Assembly (NCBI RefSeq): GCF_000767165.1
Contig: NZ_AXCZ01000002.1
Span: forward strand, 1-63,688
Source: Cellulomonas bogoriensis 69B4 = DSM 16987
Lineage (GTDB): Bacteria; Actinomycetota; Actinomycetes; Actinomycetales; Cellulomonadaceae
DNA length: 63,688 nucleotides
Direction: 5' to 3'
Part shown: in pieces, positions 5,542 through 63,688 of the stretch
Layout of the letters: each line of letters opens with the position of its first letter
Position numbering within the stretch: the stretch's first letter is position 1
The notes under the pieces: model-generated
Seen by the model: the letters and a program-made list of their open reading frames with translations, nothing else
Databases searched by the model: none
Told to the model about the DNA's origin: nothing
Translations under genes and position numbers: made by a program

Positions 5542-6327
5542 TCAGCCGTCGGATCCCACGTCCGTGGCGAGCGTGCCCAGGTACAGCTCGATGACCTTCG
5601 GGTCGTTCATCAGGTCCCGCCCAGGGGCGGTGTAGGCGTTGCGGCCCTGGTCCAGGACGTAACCGCGGTCGCAGACCTGGAGGCAACGACGGGCGTTCTG
5701 CTCGACCATGATGATCGAGACACCCGTCCGGTTGATCTTCCTCGTCCGCAGGAAGGTCTCGTCCTGACGCACCGGCGACAGCCCGGCGGACGGCTCGTCC
5801 AGCAGCAGCACCGACGGCTCCATCATCAATGCTCTCGCCATGGCCACCATCTGGCGCTCGCCACCGGACAGGGACCCGGCGCGTTGACGCCGGCGGTCTC
5901 CCAGGGCCGGGAACAGGTCGACGATCGCCTCGAAGCGTTCGGCGAACCGACGCGGTTCCTGGTAGCTGCCCATCTGGAGGTTCTCCTCGATGGTGAGGGA
6001 GGGGAACACGTTGTTGTTCTGCGGGACGAACCCGACACCCCGCCGGACCAGTGAGTCGGCGCGCTTGTTCGTGATGTCCTCACCCTTGAGGGTGACCTTG
6101 CCGGAGCGGACCGTCACCAACCCGAAGAGGGCCTTGAGGAGCGTGGACTTGCCGGCACCGTTCGGCCCGATGATCCCGATCAGCTCGCCGGGCCGCACGA
6201 CCAGGTCGCAGCCGTTGAGGATGTTCACCCCCGGCAGGTACCCGGCGACGAGGTCCTCCGCGTGGAGGAGGGTGTCGTCCTGCACGGTCCCCGCGGGGGC
6301 CTGCGTCGTGGCCGGGGTGGTGGTCAC
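5542..6327 (-). CDS. livF: Branched-chain amino acid ABC transporter ATP-binding protein LivF
   Basis: A 261-residue ABC ATPase. Walker A GPNGAGKS is at 54-61, the signature LSGGE at 153-157 and Walker B VLLLDEP at about 173-179. The Q of SIIMVEQNA replaces the usual switch His, a normal feature of LivF. The C-terminus carries the LivF-type NDPKVIELYLG. It forms the ATPase pair with LivG and drives uptake through LivH/LivM. Its ATG overlaps the livG stop by 4 bp, so translation is likely coupled. It is the last gene of the minus-strand livHMGF operon. Confidence 0.9.
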   Translation of the reverse strand: MTTTPATTQAPAGTVQDDTLLHAEDLVAGYLPGVNILNGCDLVVRPGELIGIIGPNGAGKSTLLKALFGLVTVRSGKVTLKGEDITNKRADSLVRRGVGFVPQNNNVFPSLTIEENLQMGSYQEPRRFAERFEAIVDLFPALGDRRRQRAGSLSGGERQMVAMARALMMEPSVLLLDEPSAGLSPVRQDETFLRTRKINRTGVSIIMVEQNARRCLQVCDRGYVLDQGRNAYTAPGRDLMNDPKVIELYLGTLATDVGSDG

Positions 6328-7229
6328 GGTCGTTCCTCTCGTCGCTGCGCGCTCCCGGCGGCCTCATCAGGTCCCTCGGGGTCCTCCAGAAGGGCGTCGT
6401 CACCCAGGTCCGTGTCGTGGTGGGCGCCCAGGTAGGCGTCGATCACGGCGGGATCGGCCATGACCGACCCCGGCGGACCTTCGGCGACGACCCGCCCCTC
6501 GGCCATGACGGCCACCCAGTCCGAGATGTGCCTGACCATGTGCATGTCGTGCTCGACGAACAGCACCGTGGTGCCGTCGTCGCGCAGGGCCTGGATGTGC
6601 CCGAGGAGCGACTGGGTCAGGGCAGGGTTCACCCCCGCCATCGGCTCGTCGAGCATGATCATCACCGGGTTGCTCATGAGGGCTCGCGCCATCTCCAGCA
6701 GCTTGCGCTGCCCGCCGGACAGGCTGCCCGCGAAGTCGTCCTTCTTCTCCAGCAGGCGGAACCGTTCCAGCAGCTCCTCCGCGCGGGCGGTGATCTCCCG
6801 TTCCCTGGGTCGCCACAGGGGCGGGACGAGCGCGGTCGCGAGGCTCTCACCGGGTTGGCGGTCAGCACCCAGCCGCATGTTCTCCATGACGGTCATCCGG
6901 GCCAGGGCCTTGGTCAGCTGGAACGTGCGGACCATCCCGCGGCGGGCGACGCGTGCGGCCGGGAGCCGACCCATGGGCCGGCCGTCGAACGTCCACGTAC
7001 CGGTGCTCGGCCGGTCGAACCCGGTCAGCAGGTTGAACAGCGTCGTCTTCCCGGCGCCGTTGGGTCCGATCAGTGCGGTGATCGCACCGCGTTGGACCTC
7101 CAGGTGCTCCACGTCGACCGCGACCATGCCCCCGAAGCGGCGACGAACGCCGTCCACGACGAGGATCGGGTCGGGCTTGGGCGCGCCAGGGGAGTGCGGG
7201 ACGGCCCCGAGGGTGGTGTCAACGGGCAT
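6324..7229 (-). CDS. livG: Branched-chain amino acid ABC transporter ATP-binding protein LivG
   Basis: A 301-residue ABC ATPase with Walker A GPNGAGKTT at about 55-63, signature LSGGQ followed by RKLLEMARALM, Walker B MIMLDEP, and a canonical switch His in VLFVEHDM. The motif DEPMAGVNPAL and the C-terminal PAVIDAYLGAHH mark the LivG branch rather than LivF. It has a longer acidic C-terminal tail (about 30 residues) than usual. It overlaps livM by 11 bp and livF by 4 bp. Confidence 0.9.
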   Translation of the reverse strand: MPVDTTLGAVPHSPGAPKPDPILVVDGVRRRFGGMVAVDVEHLEVQRGAITALIGPNGAGKTTLFNLLTGFDRPSTGTWTFDGRPMGRLPAARVARRGMVRTFQLTKALARMTVMENMRLGADRQPGESLATALVPPLWRPREREITARAEELLERFRLLEKKDDFAGSLSGGQRKLLEMARALMSNPVMIMLDEPMAGVNPALTQSLLGHIQALRDDGTTVLFVEHDMHMVRHISDWVAVMAEGRVVAEGPPGSVMADPAVIDAYLGAHHDTDLGDDALLEDPEGPDEAAGSAQRREERP

Positions 7230-8205
7230 CGATCGCCAGCTCCTTCCGGTCCCCGAGTATCCCTTGCGGTCTGAAGATGACCAGGAGCATCAGGGTGACG
7301 CCGACGACGATCCAGCCGAACTGCTCGATCTGCTCGGTCCGCATGACGGTGGCGGGCACCACGTCGCGCATGACCGTCTTGATGAGCATCAGCGCGCCCC
7401 AGAAGATCATCGACCCGAGCACCGGACCGAAGACCGTCGCGGCCCCCCCGAGCAGGAGGATCGTCCAGATGAAGAACGTCATGGGTCTGCCCATGGCATC
7501 GGGTTGCACCGCCCGGGGTAAGACGTAGACCACCCCTGCGAGCGCACCGATCACGCCGCCGAGGACCAGCGCCTGCATCTTGTAGGCGTACACGTTCTTG
7601 CCGAGGGAGCGGACGGCGTCCTCGTCCTCCCTGATGCCCTTGAGGACCCGGCCCCACGGGCTGTTGATGAGCCGCCACACGAGCAGGCAGGCGAGGAGGA
7701 CCAGGAGCCACCCGACGATGCGGATCCACCACGAGTTCGAGGCGTTGTTGGCGTAGGTGAACGGGCCCAGGGTCGTCGTGCCGTCCGGGAACGGTGACAG
7801 TGCCTGGAACGTCACCTTGTAGCTGTCGCCCCGGAGCCCGGACGAGGCGCCGGTCAGGTCGGTGAGGGCGGTGGACCGACCGACGATGCGGACGATCTCG
7901 GCTGCGGCGATGGTGACGATGGCCAGGTAGTCCCCGCGCAGCTTGAGGGTCGGGATCCCTAGCAGCAGGCCGAAGAGCACCGCGCAGGCGATCGCGACCA
8001 GGACCGCTGCCCACAGCGGGAACCCGGCGATGGTGGAGATCGCGAAGCCGTAGGCGCCGAGCAGCATGAAGCCTGCCTGCCCGAAGTTGAGCAGCCCGGT
8101 GAGCCCGAAGTGCACGTTGAGGCCGATGGCCGCGAGGGCGTATGCGGCGGTGGTGGGGGCGATCAGCTCGCCGGCGACGTTTGTGAGGATGCGTGCCCAG
8201 TCCAT
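7219..8205 (-). CDS. livM: Branched-chain amino acid ABC transporter permease LivM
   Basis: A 328-residue multi-spanning membrane protein. It shows the LivM-type GLNVHFGLTGLLNFGQAGFMLLGAY near the N-terminus (quoted in pieces: LNVHFGLTGLLNFGQAGF, then MLLGAY), the cytoplasmic motif LKLRGDYLAIVTIAAAEIVR and the EAA-like loop SPWGRVLKGIREDEDAVRSL. It forms the translocation path with LivH. It sits 10 bp downstream of livH and overlaps livG. Confidence 0.9.
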   Translation of the reverse strand: MDWARILTNVAGELIAPTTAAYALAAIGLNVHFGLTGLLNFGQAGFMLLGAYGFAISTIAGFPLWAAVLVAIACAVLFGLLLGIPTLKLRGDYLAIVTIAAAEIVRIVGRSTALTDLTGASSGLRGDSYKVTFQALSPFPDGTTTLGPFTYANNASNSWWIRIVGWLLVLLACLLVWRLINSPWGRVLKGIREDEDAVRSLGKNVYAYKMQALVLGGVIGALAGVVYVLPRAVQPDAMGRPMTFFIWTILLLGGAATVFGPVLGSMIFWGALMLIKTVMRDVVPATVMRTEQIEQFGWIVVGVTLMLLVIFRPQGILGDRKELAIDAR

Positions 8206-59058: not shown

Positions 59059-59132
<74 letters not shown>

Positions 59133-59145
59133 CAGTGAGACAGCA

Positions 59146-59187: not shown

Positions 59188-59286
59188 ATCCGGCATCCCT
59201 GATGCGCGTCCCGGGAGCCCACCGCGGTCCGTGCGGCGGGGCCGGTAGGATCCAGCACGGCAGTGATCGAGACCGAGGGAGCGCCA

Positions 59287-59724
59287 GTGGGTGATGTGAC
59301 GCACCATGCGCTCGACGGGTACGCCAAGGCCGCTGCCCGGCAGCTCGGGCCGGGCACCCACTGCAGCATCACGTTGCGGTACCGCGACCGTCTGACGTAC
59401 GTGGGCAGCAGCGACCCGCGGGCCGAACGCTGTGACGCGGCCGAGGTCGTGGCCGGCGAGGGGCCGTGCATCACCGCCATGGACGAGCTGCGCGGGGTGC
59501 TGGTGCCCGACATGCAGGTCGAGACCCGGTGGCCGCAGTGGCGGGAGGCGGCACGGTCGGTCGGGTTCCGCTCCGCGGCAGCGCTGCCTGCCTACGTCGA
59601 CGACGACACGACGCTGGCGTTGAACATGTACTCCGACGCGCTGGATCCCTGGGACCGCGAGAGGCTGATCGGCATGGACAGCATCATCCAGGAGATCGCC
59701 GAGGCGGTCCGGACCCGACTGTGA
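59287..59724 (+). CDS. GAF-domain protein
   Basis: A 145-residue protein that is essentially one GAF domain (HCSITLRYRDRLTYVGSSDP, VVAGEGPCITAMDELRGVLV, FRSAAALPAYVDDDTTLALN). GTG 59287 is preferred (GAGGGAG 5 nt upstream); GTG 59263 is also in frame. A TAGGAT element at 59246-59251 is a probable -10. Similar actinobacterial proteins pair GAF with ANTAR; the ANTAR part is absent here. It lies directly before an HATPase gene, so a small signalling pair is likely. Confidence 0.8.
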   Translation: MGDVTHHALDGYAKAAARQLGPGTHCSITLRYRDRLTYVGSSDPRAERCDAAEVVAGEGPCITAMDELRGVLVPDMQVETRWPQWREAARSVGFRSAAALPAYVDDDTTLALNMYSDALDPWDRERLIGMDSIIQEIAEAVRTRL

Positions 59725-59785
59725 CGACACCCACATGACCGGATCCGCCGTGCGTCCACCGGCCGCGAGGTGTTCAGTTGCTCCC

Positions 59786-60151
59786 ATGCGACTGCACCTC
59801 GACGCCCGGCGTGGGTCGGTGGGTGCGGCGAGGCACTGGGTCAGGGACCACCTGACGGCCGTCGCGATCGCGGGTCAGACCCTGACGATCAGCGAGCTCC
59901 TCACGAGCGAGCTCGTGGCCAACGCTGTGCTCCACGGGTGCGGGGCGGTCACGGTCGAGGTCTCGATCGACGCCGCTGAGGTCGTGGTCACCGTCAGGGA
60001 CCAGGGAGAAGGCGTTCCGGTGGCCCGCACGACCGGTCCCGAGGTGCCGGGCGGTCAGGGGGTCCGACTCGTCGAACGTCTGGCGGCCCGATGGGGCGTC
60101 GAGCAGGAGGAGCCGGGCAAGGCGGTCTGGTTCGCCGTCGCCCGCGGCTGA
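59786..60151 (+). CDS. HATPase_c domain protein, anti-sigma-factor kinase-like
   Basis: A 121-residue GHKL ATPase domain protein from ATG 59786; ATG 59735 is in frame and would add 17 residues. N-box SELLTSELVANAVLHGCGAV, G1 box VRDQGEGVP, and a G2-like GGQGVRLVERLAARWGVEQ. The family includes RsbW/SpoIIAB-like anti-sigma kinases and many small Streptomyces regulators. No cognate sigma or anti-sigma antagonist gene is adjacent. Confidence 0.82.
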   Translation: MRLHLDARRGSVGAARHWVRDHLTAVAIAGQTLTISELLTSELVANAVLHGCGAVTVEVSIDAAEVVVTVRDQGEGVPVARTTGPEVPGGQGVRLVERLAARWGVEQEEPGKAVWFAVARG

Positions 60152-60603: not shown

Positions 60604-61710
60604 TCACCAGGCGCCCGAGCGCTCCCCGAGCCACGGGGCCAGGGCGTCCTCCGCCCCCAACCACGGGGCCAGGCCCCGGGCGTCCTCGGCGTCCGAGAGG
60701 ATCACCGAGTCGAACGTCTCGCGCAGCGCCGGCGCCTCGTCGCCGCAGCCGGTGTAGACCAGGCGCGTGAACGGGTCACGCCGCCGCCACGGTCCCAGCT
60801 CGCCGATGCTGAGCTGGCCCCCGGCGCCGTCCCAGACGCATGCCGAGTGCGGGCGGTCCGGGACCCAGAAGACCCCGCGGCTGCGCAGACGTCCGGACCC
60901 GAGGTCCTCGATGCGTTCCAGGAGCCGCTCGGGGTGCATGGGCCTGGGGGAGCGCAGGTCCAGCGACCACACCCCGTTGCCGGTGGGGGCGTGCTGGACC
61001 GGCGCGGCGTGCACGGGGTCCAGGCGGCGTTCGGCGGTGCGGGTGTCGTGCCGCATCCGGTGCAGGCCCGCGGTGTCGAGCTCGTGCAGGCCGTCCACCC
61101 TGACGGCGTCGTTGGCGCGCAGGTGGTCCAGCAGGTCCGAACCGACCGGGTGGGCGCCCCGCTCACCGGCCACGACGAGCACGTCCACGTGACCCACCTG
61201 CGCCGCGAGCGCCTCACCGACGGAGCGGCGGTCGTCCTCGGTGAGGCCGAGTCCGCGCTCGTCGAGCAGGTCGTCACCGAGCAGGTCGTGCTCGCAGGTC
61301 TCGACGTCCACGGCGCCGACGACGCTCGCCAGGCGCACGTCCGGCAGGTCACCGCCGCGGCGGGCCGCCCAGCCGAGGGCACGCGCGACGGGCAGGGACT
61401 CGGCCGAGACGGGCAGGGCGAGGACCAGGGCCGACCACCGACCCTGGGACGCCAGGTCGCGCAGCACGGGGATCGCGTCCTCCCGGACCGCGCAGCTCAG
61501 GCACGCGTGCTCCAGGGGGACCAGGACGTCCTCGACCACGCCGGTGTGGTCCAGCACGACGCGTCGGATCGCCCCGTCCCCGTCGTCGTCGACGATGTCG
61601 TGGCGCAGGACGACGGTGCCCGGGGCGTCGGTGACCATGCCGAACACGACGGAGTCGCGCAGGACGGGGTCGACGGTCGCCAGGGCTGTCAGTGGTAGGT
61701 GCCGGGCCAT
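60604..61710 (-). CDS. COG0523/CobW-like protein lacking the P-loop
   Basis: A 368-residue protein from ATG 61710. It aligns by pattern to the G3E (CobW/ZigA-type) metallochaperone GTPases: a CxxC motif (C70-LS-C73 in HACLSCAVRED, where CxCC is usual), ALVLALPVSAESLPVARAL, and a CobW_C-like end (PMHPERLLERIEDLGSGRLR, SRGVFWVPDRPH). But the N-terminus reads LPLTALATVDPVLRDSVVF where the Walker A GxxGxGKT should be, so GTP hydrolysis in the normal way is doubtful. It diverges from the zinc-independent ribosomal operon across a Zur-like box, which implies expression under zinc starvation. Confidence 0.8.
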   Translation of the reverse strand: MARHLPLTALATVDPVLRDSVVFGMVTDAPGTVVLRHDIVDDDGDGAIRRVVLDHTGVVEDVLVPLEHACLSCAVREDAIPVLRDLASQGRWSALVLALPVSAESLPVARALGWAARRGGDLPDVRLASVVGAVDVETCEHDLLGDDLLDERGLGLTEDDRRSVGEALAAQVGHVDVLVVAGERGAHPVGSDLLDHLRANDAVRVDGLHELDTAGLHRMRHDTRTAERRLDPVHAAPVQHAPTGNGVWSLDLRSPRPMHPERLLERIEDLGSGRLRSRGVFWVPDRPHSACVWDGAGGQLSIGELGPWRRRDPFTRLVYTGCGDEAPALRETFDSVILSDAEDARGLAPWLGAEDALAPWLGERSGAW

Positions 61711-61766
61711 GGGCCCCCCTTCGGGAAGTGCACGGGTGTGGGTCGAGGTCGCCCCACTGTAACGCT

Positions 61767-61786
61767 TGACGGGAATGATTATCACT
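61767..61786. promoter_or_regulatory. Zur-like operator between the COG0523 gene and rpmB
   Basis: TGACGGGAATGATTATCACT closely resembles the actinobacterial Zur box TGAnAATGATTTTCA, with the AATGATTATCA core. It is AT-rich against its surroundings and lies 57 bp from the COG0523 start and 77 bp from rpmB. With zinc present, Zur would repress both divergent units. Confidence 0.78.
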
Positions 61787-61862
61787 CCTACGGTGGCCCT
61801 TGCGGCTCTCCGCCATCGGCGCGCCCGCCGCACTCCCATCGATCACCTACCGAGGAGCACCC

Positions 61863-62099
61863 ATGTCCGCACGGTGCCAGGTGCTCGGCACCACGCCGGG
61901 CTTCGGCCACTCGATCTCCCACTCCCACGTCCGCACCAAGCGCCGGTTCAACCCGAACGTGCAGCGCAAGCGCTACTGGGTCCCGTCCCTGGGACGGCAC
62001 GTGCGGCTGACGGTCAGCACCAAGGGGATCCGGACGATCGACCGTCGCGGCATCGACGTCGTCGTCGCCGAGATCCTGGCCCGCGGGGAGAAGATCTGA
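61863..62099 (+). CDS. rpmB: 50S ribosomal protein L28, zinc-independent paralogue
   Basis: A 78-residue L28 from ATG 61863. The zinc form begins with a CxxC (VCDVCG-like); here it reads [20 protein letters not shown], with one Cys left, so the zinc ribbon is lost. [19 protein letters not shown] is the conserved core. GAGGAGCACC precedes the ATG. It is first of six coupled ribosomal genes. Confidence 0.94.
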
Positions 62100-62269
62100 T
62101 GGCCGCTCGACGTCAGGACCTGCGCCCCATCATCAAGATGCGCTCCACCGCGGGAACCGGGTTCACCTACGTGACCCGCAAGAACCGTCGCAACGACCCC
62201 GACCGCCTCGTGCTGAAGAAGTACGACCCCGTGATCCGCAAGCACGTCGACTTCCGCGAGGAGCGCTGA
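62099..62269 (+). CDS. rpmG: 50S ribosomal protein L33, zinc-independent paralogue
   Basis: A 56-residue L33 without cysteine ([40 protein letters not shown]). The zinc-binding form has two CxxC pairs. ATG 62099 overlaps the rpmB stop (TGATG), and its own stop overlaps rpsN. Confidence 0.94.
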
Positions 62270-62574
62270 TGGCCAAGAAGAGCAAGATCGCCCGCAACGA
62301 GCAGCGCAAGGAGGTCGTGGCCCGGTACGCCGAGCGGCGACGCGAGCTCAAGAAGGCCTCGACCAACCCGCACCTCAGCGCCGCCGAGCGGGCCGAGGCC
62401 ATGCGCGCCCTGCACGCCCTGCCCCGCGACGCCAGCCCCACCCGGGTGCGCAACCGCGACGTCGCCGACGGGCGCCCCCGCGGCACCCTGCGCAAGTTCG
62501 GCCTGTCCCGGGTCCGGATGCGCCAGATGGCCCACCGGGGCGAGCTGCCCGGCATCACGAAGTCCAGCTGGTGA
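62269..62574 (+). CDS. rpsN: 30S ribosomal protein S14, zinc-independent paralogue
   Basis: A 101-residue long-form S14 without cysteine ([40 protein letters not shown], ending in ITKSSW). The zinc form is about 61 residues with CxxC pairs. ATG 62269 overlaps the rpmG stop. Confidence 0.95.
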
Positions 62575-62584
62575 GGAGCCACAC

Positions 62585-62845
62585 ATGAGACGAGGGATCC
62601 ACCCCGACTACCACCCCGTGGTCTTCCGCGACCCGTCCGCCGGCGTCGCGTTCCTGACCCGGTCCACGGTCACCTCGACCACGACGATCGAGTGGGAGGA
62701 CGGCCAGACCTATCCCGTGGTCGACGTGGACGTGTCCAGCGCCAGCCACCCGTTCTACACCGGTCGCACCCGCGTCCTGGACACCGCGGGGCGGGTCGAG
62801 AAGTTCCGCCGCCGCTACGGCACCACCACCGAGGAGACGTCATGA
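62585..62845 (+). CDS. rpmE2: 50S ribosomal protein L31 type B
   Basis: An 86-residue L31B ([49 protein letters not shown]). It lacks the cysteines of L31A and can displace it from the ribosome to free zinc. GAGGAGCC precedes ATG 62585. The stop overlaps rpmJ. Confidence 0.95.
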
Positions 62846-62964
62846 AGGTCCGTGCCTCCCTGGCCTCGCTGAAGAAGAAGGACGGCTCGATCGTCGTCCG
62901 CAGGCGCGGCAAGACGTTCGTCATCAACAAGAAGAACCCGCGCTGGAAGGGCAGGCAGGGCTGA
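62842..62964 (+). CDS. rpmJ: 50S ribosomal protein L36, zinc-independent paralogue
   Basis: A 40-residue L36 ([39 protein letters not shown]). The zinc ligands of the usual L36 (CxxC, C, H) are absent. ATG 62842 overlaps the L31B stop and the TGA overlaps the rpmF ATG. Confidence 0.93.
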
Positions 62965-63137
62965 TGGCGGTCCCCAAGCGCAAGATGTCGCGCAGCCGCA
63001 CCCGGTCCCGGCGCGCGCAGTGGAAGGCCACGCCCACCGAGCTCGTCACCGTCCGCGCCGGTGGGCGCGAGGTGCAGGTGCCCCGGCGGCTCGTGCGCGC
63101 GGTCCAACGGGGTCTGGTCGACCCCGACACACTCTGA
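62964..63137 (+). CDS. rpmF: 50S ribosomal protein L32, zinc-independent paralogue
   Basis: A 57-residue L32 ([40 protein letters not shown]). The zinc form carries CxxC pairs in the middle and end; none is present here. ATG 62964 overlaps the rpmJ stop (TGATG). It is short and easily missed. Confidence 0.92.
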
Positions 63138-63152
63138 GAGACAGGAACTGCC

Positions 63153-63434
63153 ATGGCACTGACCCGCAACGACGTGGTCGCACGCATCGCCGAGCGCACC
63201 GGCAACCCTGCCACCGAGGTCGCCGCGACGCTCACCGCCCTGCAGGAGCTCCTCGTGGAGTCCCTGCGCGAGGGCCAGGCCGTCCGGCTCACCGGCCTGA
63301 TGACGGTCGAGCGCACCGACCGCGCAGCCCGCACCGGGCGCAACCCCCGCACCGGGGAGACCTTGGAGATCCCCGCCGGCCACGGCGTGCGGATCACCGC
63401 CGGCACCGCACTGAAGGACGCGGCCAAGGGCTGA
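63153..63434 (+). CDS. HU-family DNA-binding protein at the end of the zinc-limitation operon
   Basis: A 93-residue HU/IHF-fold protein (MALTRNDVVARIAERTGNPA, AVRLTGLMTVERTDRAARTG, RNPRTGETLEIPAGHGVRIT). The RNPRTGE DNA-binding arm is intact. It starts 15 bp after rpmF with AGACAGGAAC upstream, so it is probably part of the Zur-controlled transcript. It has no long Lys/Ala-rich tail, unlike the main actinobacterial HupB. Confidence 0.9.
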   Translation: MALTRNDVVARIAERTGNPATEVAATLTALQELLVESLREGQAVRLTGLMTVERTDRAARTGRNPRTGETLEIPAGHGVRITAGTALKDAAKG

Positions 63435-63458
63435 CCGCGCCTCACCGGGCTCGCGAGG

Positions 63459-63688
63459 TCAGGCAACCGTCATCTGGGCGGCGCGGTCGGCGACACCGGC
63501 CGCGCCGCCCTCGGCGTACCAGCGCCGCTGGGCGTCCGCACCCGTCCCGACCTCCAGCAGCTCGTCCACCCGCCCGCACACCGTCCCCAGGTCCCCGCAC
63601 GCGTCGAGCGCCGGGCCCACGTGCTCCAGCAGGGACCCGACCACGTCCCGCGCCGGGACCGGCTCGAAGGAACCGGGGTCCAGCAGCG
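63459..63688 (-). CDS. Carboxylate-amine ligase, GCS2 (YbdK) family, C-terminal part
   Basis: The last 76 codons of a gene that enters from the right edge: LLDPGSFEPVPARDVVGSLL, HVGPALDACGDLGTVCGRVD, ELLEVGTGADAQRRWYAEGG. The GTGADAQRRWYA block and the preceding helix match the C-terminus of glutamate-cysteine ligase type 2 / YbdK proteins, which join glutamate to an amine. The catalytic part lies outside the window. Confidence 0.75.
   Translation of the reverse strand, partial: LLDPGSFEPVPARDVVGSLLEHVGPALDACGDLGTVCGRVDELLEVGTGADAQRRWYAEGGAAGVADRAAQMTVA

Follow-up and report, generated by a model that had tools for sequence, protein, structure and literature searches.

Seven genes behind a Zur-type box

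In this study, we analysed the right end of a 63,688-base contig of Cellulomonas bogoriensis 69B4 (NZ_AXCZ01000002.1; the window), from an assembly of 3.18 Mb in 524 contigs that is 99.98% complete. Six genes for ribosomal proteins (L28, L33, S14, L31, L36, and L32) lie here in a row, and a gene for the nucleoid protein HU follows as the seventh, starting 15 bp after L32 (Table 1). The six ribosomal genes agree with the original prediction made from this sequence, but that prediction left out the HU gene, which lies within the same span. Neighbouring ribosomal genes overlap at four of the five joints, with TGATG at 62097, 62267, and 62962 and ATGA at 62842, and a 10-bp gap without overlap separates S14 from L31. 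The predicted loss of Cys was also found, with a single Cys in L28 (C5) and none in the other five proteins. All six ribosomal proteins exceeded their Pfam cut-offs in a profile search. Among the solved chains to which the window L28 aligned were 'L28 C-' and 'bL28-c minus' (9e16), and Cys-poor ribosomal proteins are called C- and Cys-bearing ones C+ below. The HU protein is the only PF00216 match in the genome (E≤0.001), with a domain hit that covers residues 3-91 of 93 and positions 1-89 of the 90 in the model. It aligns to solved HU chains and carries the arm motif GRNPRTGE, and R60 and P65 were invariant across 13 aligned HUs. It is an ordinary tail-less HU, predicted from its sequence to bind DNA.

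Table 1. Features at the right end of the window.
Feature	Position	Strand	Evidence or remark
COG0523 / CobW-C type protein, MRF-like branch	60604-61710	-	PF07683; start taken as ATG at 61710, longer frame exists
Predicted operon promoter TTGACG-17-TACGGT	61766-61794	+	best intergenic match, 8/12 to consensus
Zur-type box CGGGAATGATTATCA	61770-61784	+	11/13 specified consensus positions
L28 (bL28), C- form, one Cys (C5)	61863-62099	+	PF00830 94.1 bits
L33 (bL33), Cys 0	62099-62269	+	PF00471 59.3 bits
S14 (uS14), long Cys-free form	62269-62574	+	PF00253 85.4 bits; NF006477 135 bits
L31 type B (bL31B), Cys 0	62585-62845	+	PF01197 95.7 bits; NF002462 135.8 bits
L36 type B (bL36B), Cys 0	62842-62964	+	PF00444 61.6 bits; NF002021 70.6 bits
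L32 (bL32), Cys 0	62964-63137	+	PF01783 41 bits
HU-family nucleoid protein, 93 aa	63153-63434	+	PF00216 81 bits (cut-off 22.4)

The zinc-starvation reading of this row called for separate zinc-binding copies elsewhere in the genome, and we found one Cys-bearing twin for each of the six. A profile search gave two copies each of L28, L33, S14, L31, and L36, a protein search gave two copies of L32, and the second copy carries Cys pairs in every case. S18 gave a single match, which is Cys-free. Across the seven families, each protein that bears Cys is thus matched by a Cys-poor replacement encoded in the operon. Other ribosomal proteins may bind zinc, such as S4 in some bacteria.

A Zur-like box had been proposed upstream of L28, and the sequence bears this out with a site matching 11 of the 13 specified positions of the assumed consensus TGANAATGATTNTCA; all box scores given here are matches out of 13. 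When the 250 bp upstream of L28 were base-shuffled 100 times, this score was never equalled. No second site in the window scored 11 and two scored 10, one of which was the same site on the opposite strand. The box covers the final two bases of the -35-like TTGACG, takes up most of the 17 bp between it and TACGGT, and also runs into a weak candidate promoter of the COG0523 gene. TTGAC precedes the box in all eight L28 loci of the genus in the first set of loci described below. When 61600-63688 was scanned strictly for promoters and terminators, no promoter was reported, the proposed one included, and a single terminator-like site appeared, on the minus strand. As for the regulator, a search of the genome gave a single FUR-family match. 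Its gene adjoins one for ZnuA (PF01297, 248.8 bits) as well as ABC ATPase and ABC-3 permease genes, and box-like sites scoring 12 and 11 lie at and immediately upstream of the longest possible start of znuA.

The COG0523-type gene diverges from the operon, as had been stated. Its protein exceeded the cut-off of the CobW_C model PF07683 (56.9 bits, cut-off 22) and fell under those of the cobW nucleotide-binding model PF02492 (17.1, cut-off 20.7), the MRF equivalog model NF047431 (115 bits, cut-off 375), and the ZigA model (99.1 bits, cut-off 600); four relatives scored 125-134 bits with the MRF model. The Walker A P-loop pattern GxxxxGK[ST] was found neither in this protein nor in those of 21 other loci, some of which are fragments, and the Cys motif is CLSC rather than the expected CxCC. 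Since the P-loop pattern is missing, the protein may not be a GTPase, and its MRF-like role is best taken as a lead only. Elsewhere on the contig, a gene for a GAF-domain protein followed by one for a HATPase_c_2 protein (59263-60151) adjoins a tRNA-Pro gene (59059-59133).

A close counterpart has been reported in Mycobacterium smegmatis, where MSMEG_6065-6070 holds Zur-regulated C- L28, L33, S14, and L31 with an MRF gene, has a Zur motif 58 bp ahead of L28 and another 57 bp ahead of MRF, and is strongly induced by zinc starvation and by zur deletion (PMC7174638). Both loci share the four C- genes, an MRF-type CobW/COG0523 gene, and a Zur-type motif before L28. The window adds L36B, L32, and HU, its row is without S18, and its COG0523 protein falls under the MRF cut-off. 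The Zur regulon of Streptomyces coelicolor, as given in a review, comprises rpmE2, rpmF2, rpmB2, rpmG2, rpsN2, znuABC, and yciC; it shares these C- genes but lists rpsR2 and not L36 (PMC6103462). For one bacterium or another, Zur control of alternative L28, L31, L32, L33, L36, S14, and S18 has been described (PMC6103462, PMC7174638). The six C- genes of the window have Cys-bearing twins and a box, the one FUR gene found in the genome lies beside zinc-transporter genes, and thus their zinc-sparing reading stands, as one of a known kind. A term search of the S. coelicolor review gave no mention of histone, nucleoid, or DNA-binding protein HU (PMC6103462), and no report tying HU to Zur was found in the open literature searched, most of which was judged below full text. 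The ribosomal part of the operon is an established kind of zinc sparing, and HU is its unusual member.

HU and C- ribosomal genes in the genus and its relatives

We compared 19 genomes of the genus, Actinotalea by record names, using the HU protein and the C- L28 protein as queries. The L28 search was imperfect, as it missed any L28 in G008 and the C+ L28 in G005. C- L28 was present in nine genomes, and HU lay behind the C- genes in eight of them. HU directly follows L32 in six, stands between L32 and L31 in G004 (Actinotalea sp. MAG-52, JACIXM010000130.1), and follows L31 in G002, where C- L36 and L32 were not found. We had considered a chance joining of HU to the row at the contig end of the window, and rejected it because HU lies behind C- ribosomal genes in seven further genomes of the genus. 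A Zur-type box heads the row in all eight HU-bearing cases. In seven it belongs to the L28 row, and in G012 (A. ferrariae CF5-4) HU is reached through a second box. There, L28-L33-S14 (L140) and L31-L36-L32-HU (L070, 161-1130) form separate rows with a box each, scoring 12 before L28 and 11/13 at 66 bp before L31 (equalled by none of 200 shuffles); TTGAC precedes this second box also.

The HU query gave no match in nine genomes (G001, G006, G007, G008, G010, G011, G013, G015, and G016), three of which are assembled in one to six contigs. Among the ten genomes without C- L28, eight had no HU match, one (G009) had a false match, and one (G017) had a different HU. The G009 match was rejected as HU, being a fragment of a zinc-binding dehydrogenase (PF00107; this genome is 83% complete). 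The HU of G017 (L076, 8040-8519) is of a different type with a Lys/Ala/Thr-rich tail. The operon type of HU was therefore found in 8/9 genomes with C- L28 and in 0/10 without it (Fisher p=1.2e-4, uncorrected for relatedness). Counting any HU, the numbers were 8/9 and 1/10 (p=0.0011, likewise uncorrected), and restriction to the 17 good assemblies gave p=4.1e-4.

A wider survey covered 100 C- L28 loci, made up of 20 from the window and relatives and the best 80 of at least 583 named relatives. L132 and L134 duplicate two of the first 20 loci, and 18 loci end too soon for HU to be judged. The claim that the set is unusually complete was not borne out by this survey and is the part of the zinc-starvation reading that fell. 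All six genes lay within 5 kb in 25 of the 100 loci (23 without duplicates), and by record titles complete sets occur in Cellulomonadaceae and Promicromonosporaceae-type genera. A box of at least 10 was present in 37 loci, and a COG0523 gene lay within 5 kb in 34 of these 37 compared to 4 of the 63 loci below 10. Eight rows (7 distinct loci) combined a box of at least 10 with HU within 100 bp, all of them in this genus, in addition to the second row of G012. Box-plus-HU rows as a general feature were rejected, since none was found outside the genus among the 100 loci.

In the loci with neither a COG0523 gene nor a box of at least 10, which by title are mainly from Micrococcaceae and Microbacteriaceae, HU lay no more than 100 bp from a C- gene in 18 (including G030), lay farther away in 17, and was absent within 5 kb in 6; another 18 ended too soon. 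The row of these families and their relatives shares C- L28, L33, and S14, then HU, with the window. It differs in that it is without COG0523 and has a box below 10 in 35/36 HU-holding rows (G003, of the genus, left out). Only L169 (Arthrobacter sp. 9V) departs from this, with a box of 10 and HU 3.3 kb away; row gaps are 51 bp to 3.3 kb. Twins were counted across relatives for S14 only, plus L32 in G030. S14 was single and Cys-free in all ten such genomes tested, whereas the window genome has a Cys-bearing S14 twin. Two S14 were found in the five genomes tested with box-bearing operons, and one, Cys-bearing, in three genomes of the genus without C- L28. The neighbourhood of HU and C- S14 is therefore old and probably arose in a housekeeping setting.

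Several loci differ in layout. L080 (G030) has the full C- set and HU without a box or COG0523 gene, and its genome has a single Cys-free S14 and one L32 match. L119 runs L28-L33-S14-L31 to the contig end, again without a box or COG0523 gene in the stretch, and has a single Cys-free S14. It looks as though the zinc-starvation genes have become the sole set in these two genomes. In L124, from Cellulosimicrobium funkei, a gene encoding the zinc chaperone AztD (6237-7682; NF038015, 468 vs 400 bits) separates HU from the C- ribosomal genes, HU being 1.7 kb beyond L36, and L125 and L131 have a gap sized like this one. In Oerskovia turbata (L130), HU lies 334 bp after L31. L125 (titled Sphaerisporangium cinnabarinum) is laid out like Cellulosimicrobium L124, and L136 (titled Curtobacterium sp. 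S6) like Kocuria L137; both labels may be wrong.

A four-protein species tree (974 columns, with 201 present in G004 and G011) placed the genomes without C- L28 at five places: G016; G006/G008/G011; G017; G001/G007/G015; and G009/G013. Several of its nodes are weak (0.29-0.76), and read by eye the tree suggests three to five joint losses of the operon and HU. In the HU tree, the eight operon HUs of the genus form one clade (support 0.995) beside the HU of G019 from the same family (0.824); HU is a short protein, and with the G005-G018 pair set aside the inner nodes have supports of 0.62-0.86. An origin of the HU of the genus from Micrococcaceae, along with the C- genes, was rejected, as the tree puts the HUs beside that of G019 and not beside Micrococcaceae HUs. 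Across 10 pairs from 5 of the 8 genomes, the median ratio of nonsynonymous to synonymous substitutions (dN/dS) came to 0.39 in HU, against 0.18-0.31 in the six ribosomal genes. Three pairs of housekeeping HUs gave 0.03/0.32, 0.09/0.30, and 0.05/0.72, or about 0.09, 0.30, and 0.07. These values suggest, but do not show, that the operon HU changes faster.

Proposed zinc control of HU and competing explanations

We propose that the locus is a Zur-repressed zinc-sparing operon from which HU would be made together with an alternative ribosome under zinc starvation, and we put the probability of this reading at about three in four. With ample zinc, zinc-loaded Zur would bind the promoter box and block transcription, and as zinc falls Zur would leave it. 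The six Cys-poor proteins would then replace the zinc-ribbon forms in new ribosomes and spare zinc, and the MRF-like COG0523 protein would be made from the opposite strand. HU stands in the row without a recognisable promoter of its own, and it would thus most likely be made with the alternative ribosome, where extra HU may affect chromosome packing.

That HU itself is controlled by zinc has slightly better than even odds. The HU of the genus sits behind a box, whereas the old S14-HU rows have almost no box, no COG0523 gene, and a sole S14 where tested. Capture of HU into Zur control in this genus is therefore the best reading of the sequences. We lean slightly towards its full form, in which the sole HU was captured, promoterless, into Zur-controlled C- rows, packing and the alternative ribosome would be switched together by zinc starvation, and about half of the genus dispensed with both.

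Several points weigh against this proposal. The FUR protein reached 53.2 of 167 bits with the Zur model and 79.4 of 220 with the Fur model; as it falls below both cut-offs and scores higher with Fur, the label Zur rests on its neighbours and sites, and the box consensus itself is an assumed one. Given the age of the pairing of HU with C- S14, their linkage does not by itself imply a functional tie. A single deletion of neighbouring genes explains each joint loss, and so the losses show linkage more than function. G010 has an L28-to-L32 row without HU, and the closest pair of operon HUs (G005-G018) is under strongly purifying selection (dN 0.01, dS 0.20). In M. smegmatis, hup (MSMEG_2389) lies elsewhere, and its low-zinc response, a transcript log fold change of -3.75 with the protein unchanged, is the opposite of what we predict for the window HU (PMC8866557).

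The strongest competing explanation is that HU is a passenger, in which case the operon would be controlled by zinc while HU keeps a constitutive promoter in or near L32 and its supply does not depend on zinc. We regard this as possible but somewhat doubtful. It fits the many related genomes with HU after C- S14 and no box or COG0523 gene, S14 being the sole copy in 10/10, and it also fits the HU-less row of G010; a cell with only one HU might need it when zinc is plentiful as well. A promoter of this kind was looked for as a -10-like TANNNT with a hexamer 16-19 bp ahead in the 250 bp upstream of HU. None was found before any of the eight operon HUs of the genus, that of the window included, compared to 15/15 other HU genes, six of which share TAGTGT at a similar place. 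This contrast is weak, because the upstream hexamers of the 15 did not stand above shuffles (23-193 of 200 were as high) and the stretches before HU are GC-rich in the genus (0.66-0.77, versus 0.46-0.73 elsewhere); at such GC, by our own estimate, the hexamer may be absent by chance in about half of stretches. The short gaps are a better sign of a single transcript. HU starts 14-25 bp after the preceding gene in five of the eight operons, although larger gaps in G004 (75 bp), G002 (66 bp), and G012 (about 64 bp) leave room for the passenger. Against the passenger, the HU of G012 stays with L31-L36-L32 behind the second Zur-type box, and no HU was found in 10 of the 19 genomes of the genus, where a constant supply would be dispensable.

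It is unlikely that the target of HU in the operon is ribosomes or RNA rather than mainly DNA, for instance if it helped to assemble or store the alternative ribosomes. HU is encoded together with ribosomal proteins and the MRF-like gene, and the tailed HU of mycobacteria, MDP1, has been reported both in the nucleoid and at the 50S subunit (PMC2453136), but the HU of the window has no tail and is of the ordinary kind, with the arm motif GRNPRTGE. Least probable is a constitutive housekeeping cluster with the Zur reading wrong, since all six window genes have Cys-bearing twins and both the box and the COG0523 gene are present, even though related L28-L33-S14-HU rows have no box and a sole S14 where tested and the FUR protein is below the Zur cut-off.

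If zinc controls HU as we propose, it would to our knowledge be the first Zur-controlled nucleoid protein. The genomes offer a natural series, with HU beside C- genes without a box in Micrococcaceae and relatives, HU alone in other Cellulomonadaceae, HU behind a Zur-type box in eight genomes of the genus, and no HU found in ten of the 19. The HU part of the operon would tie zinc status to nucleoid structure, with chromosome packing under low-zinc control, and the series would trace a DNA-packaging protein as it moved from housekeeping to stress control and was then lost.

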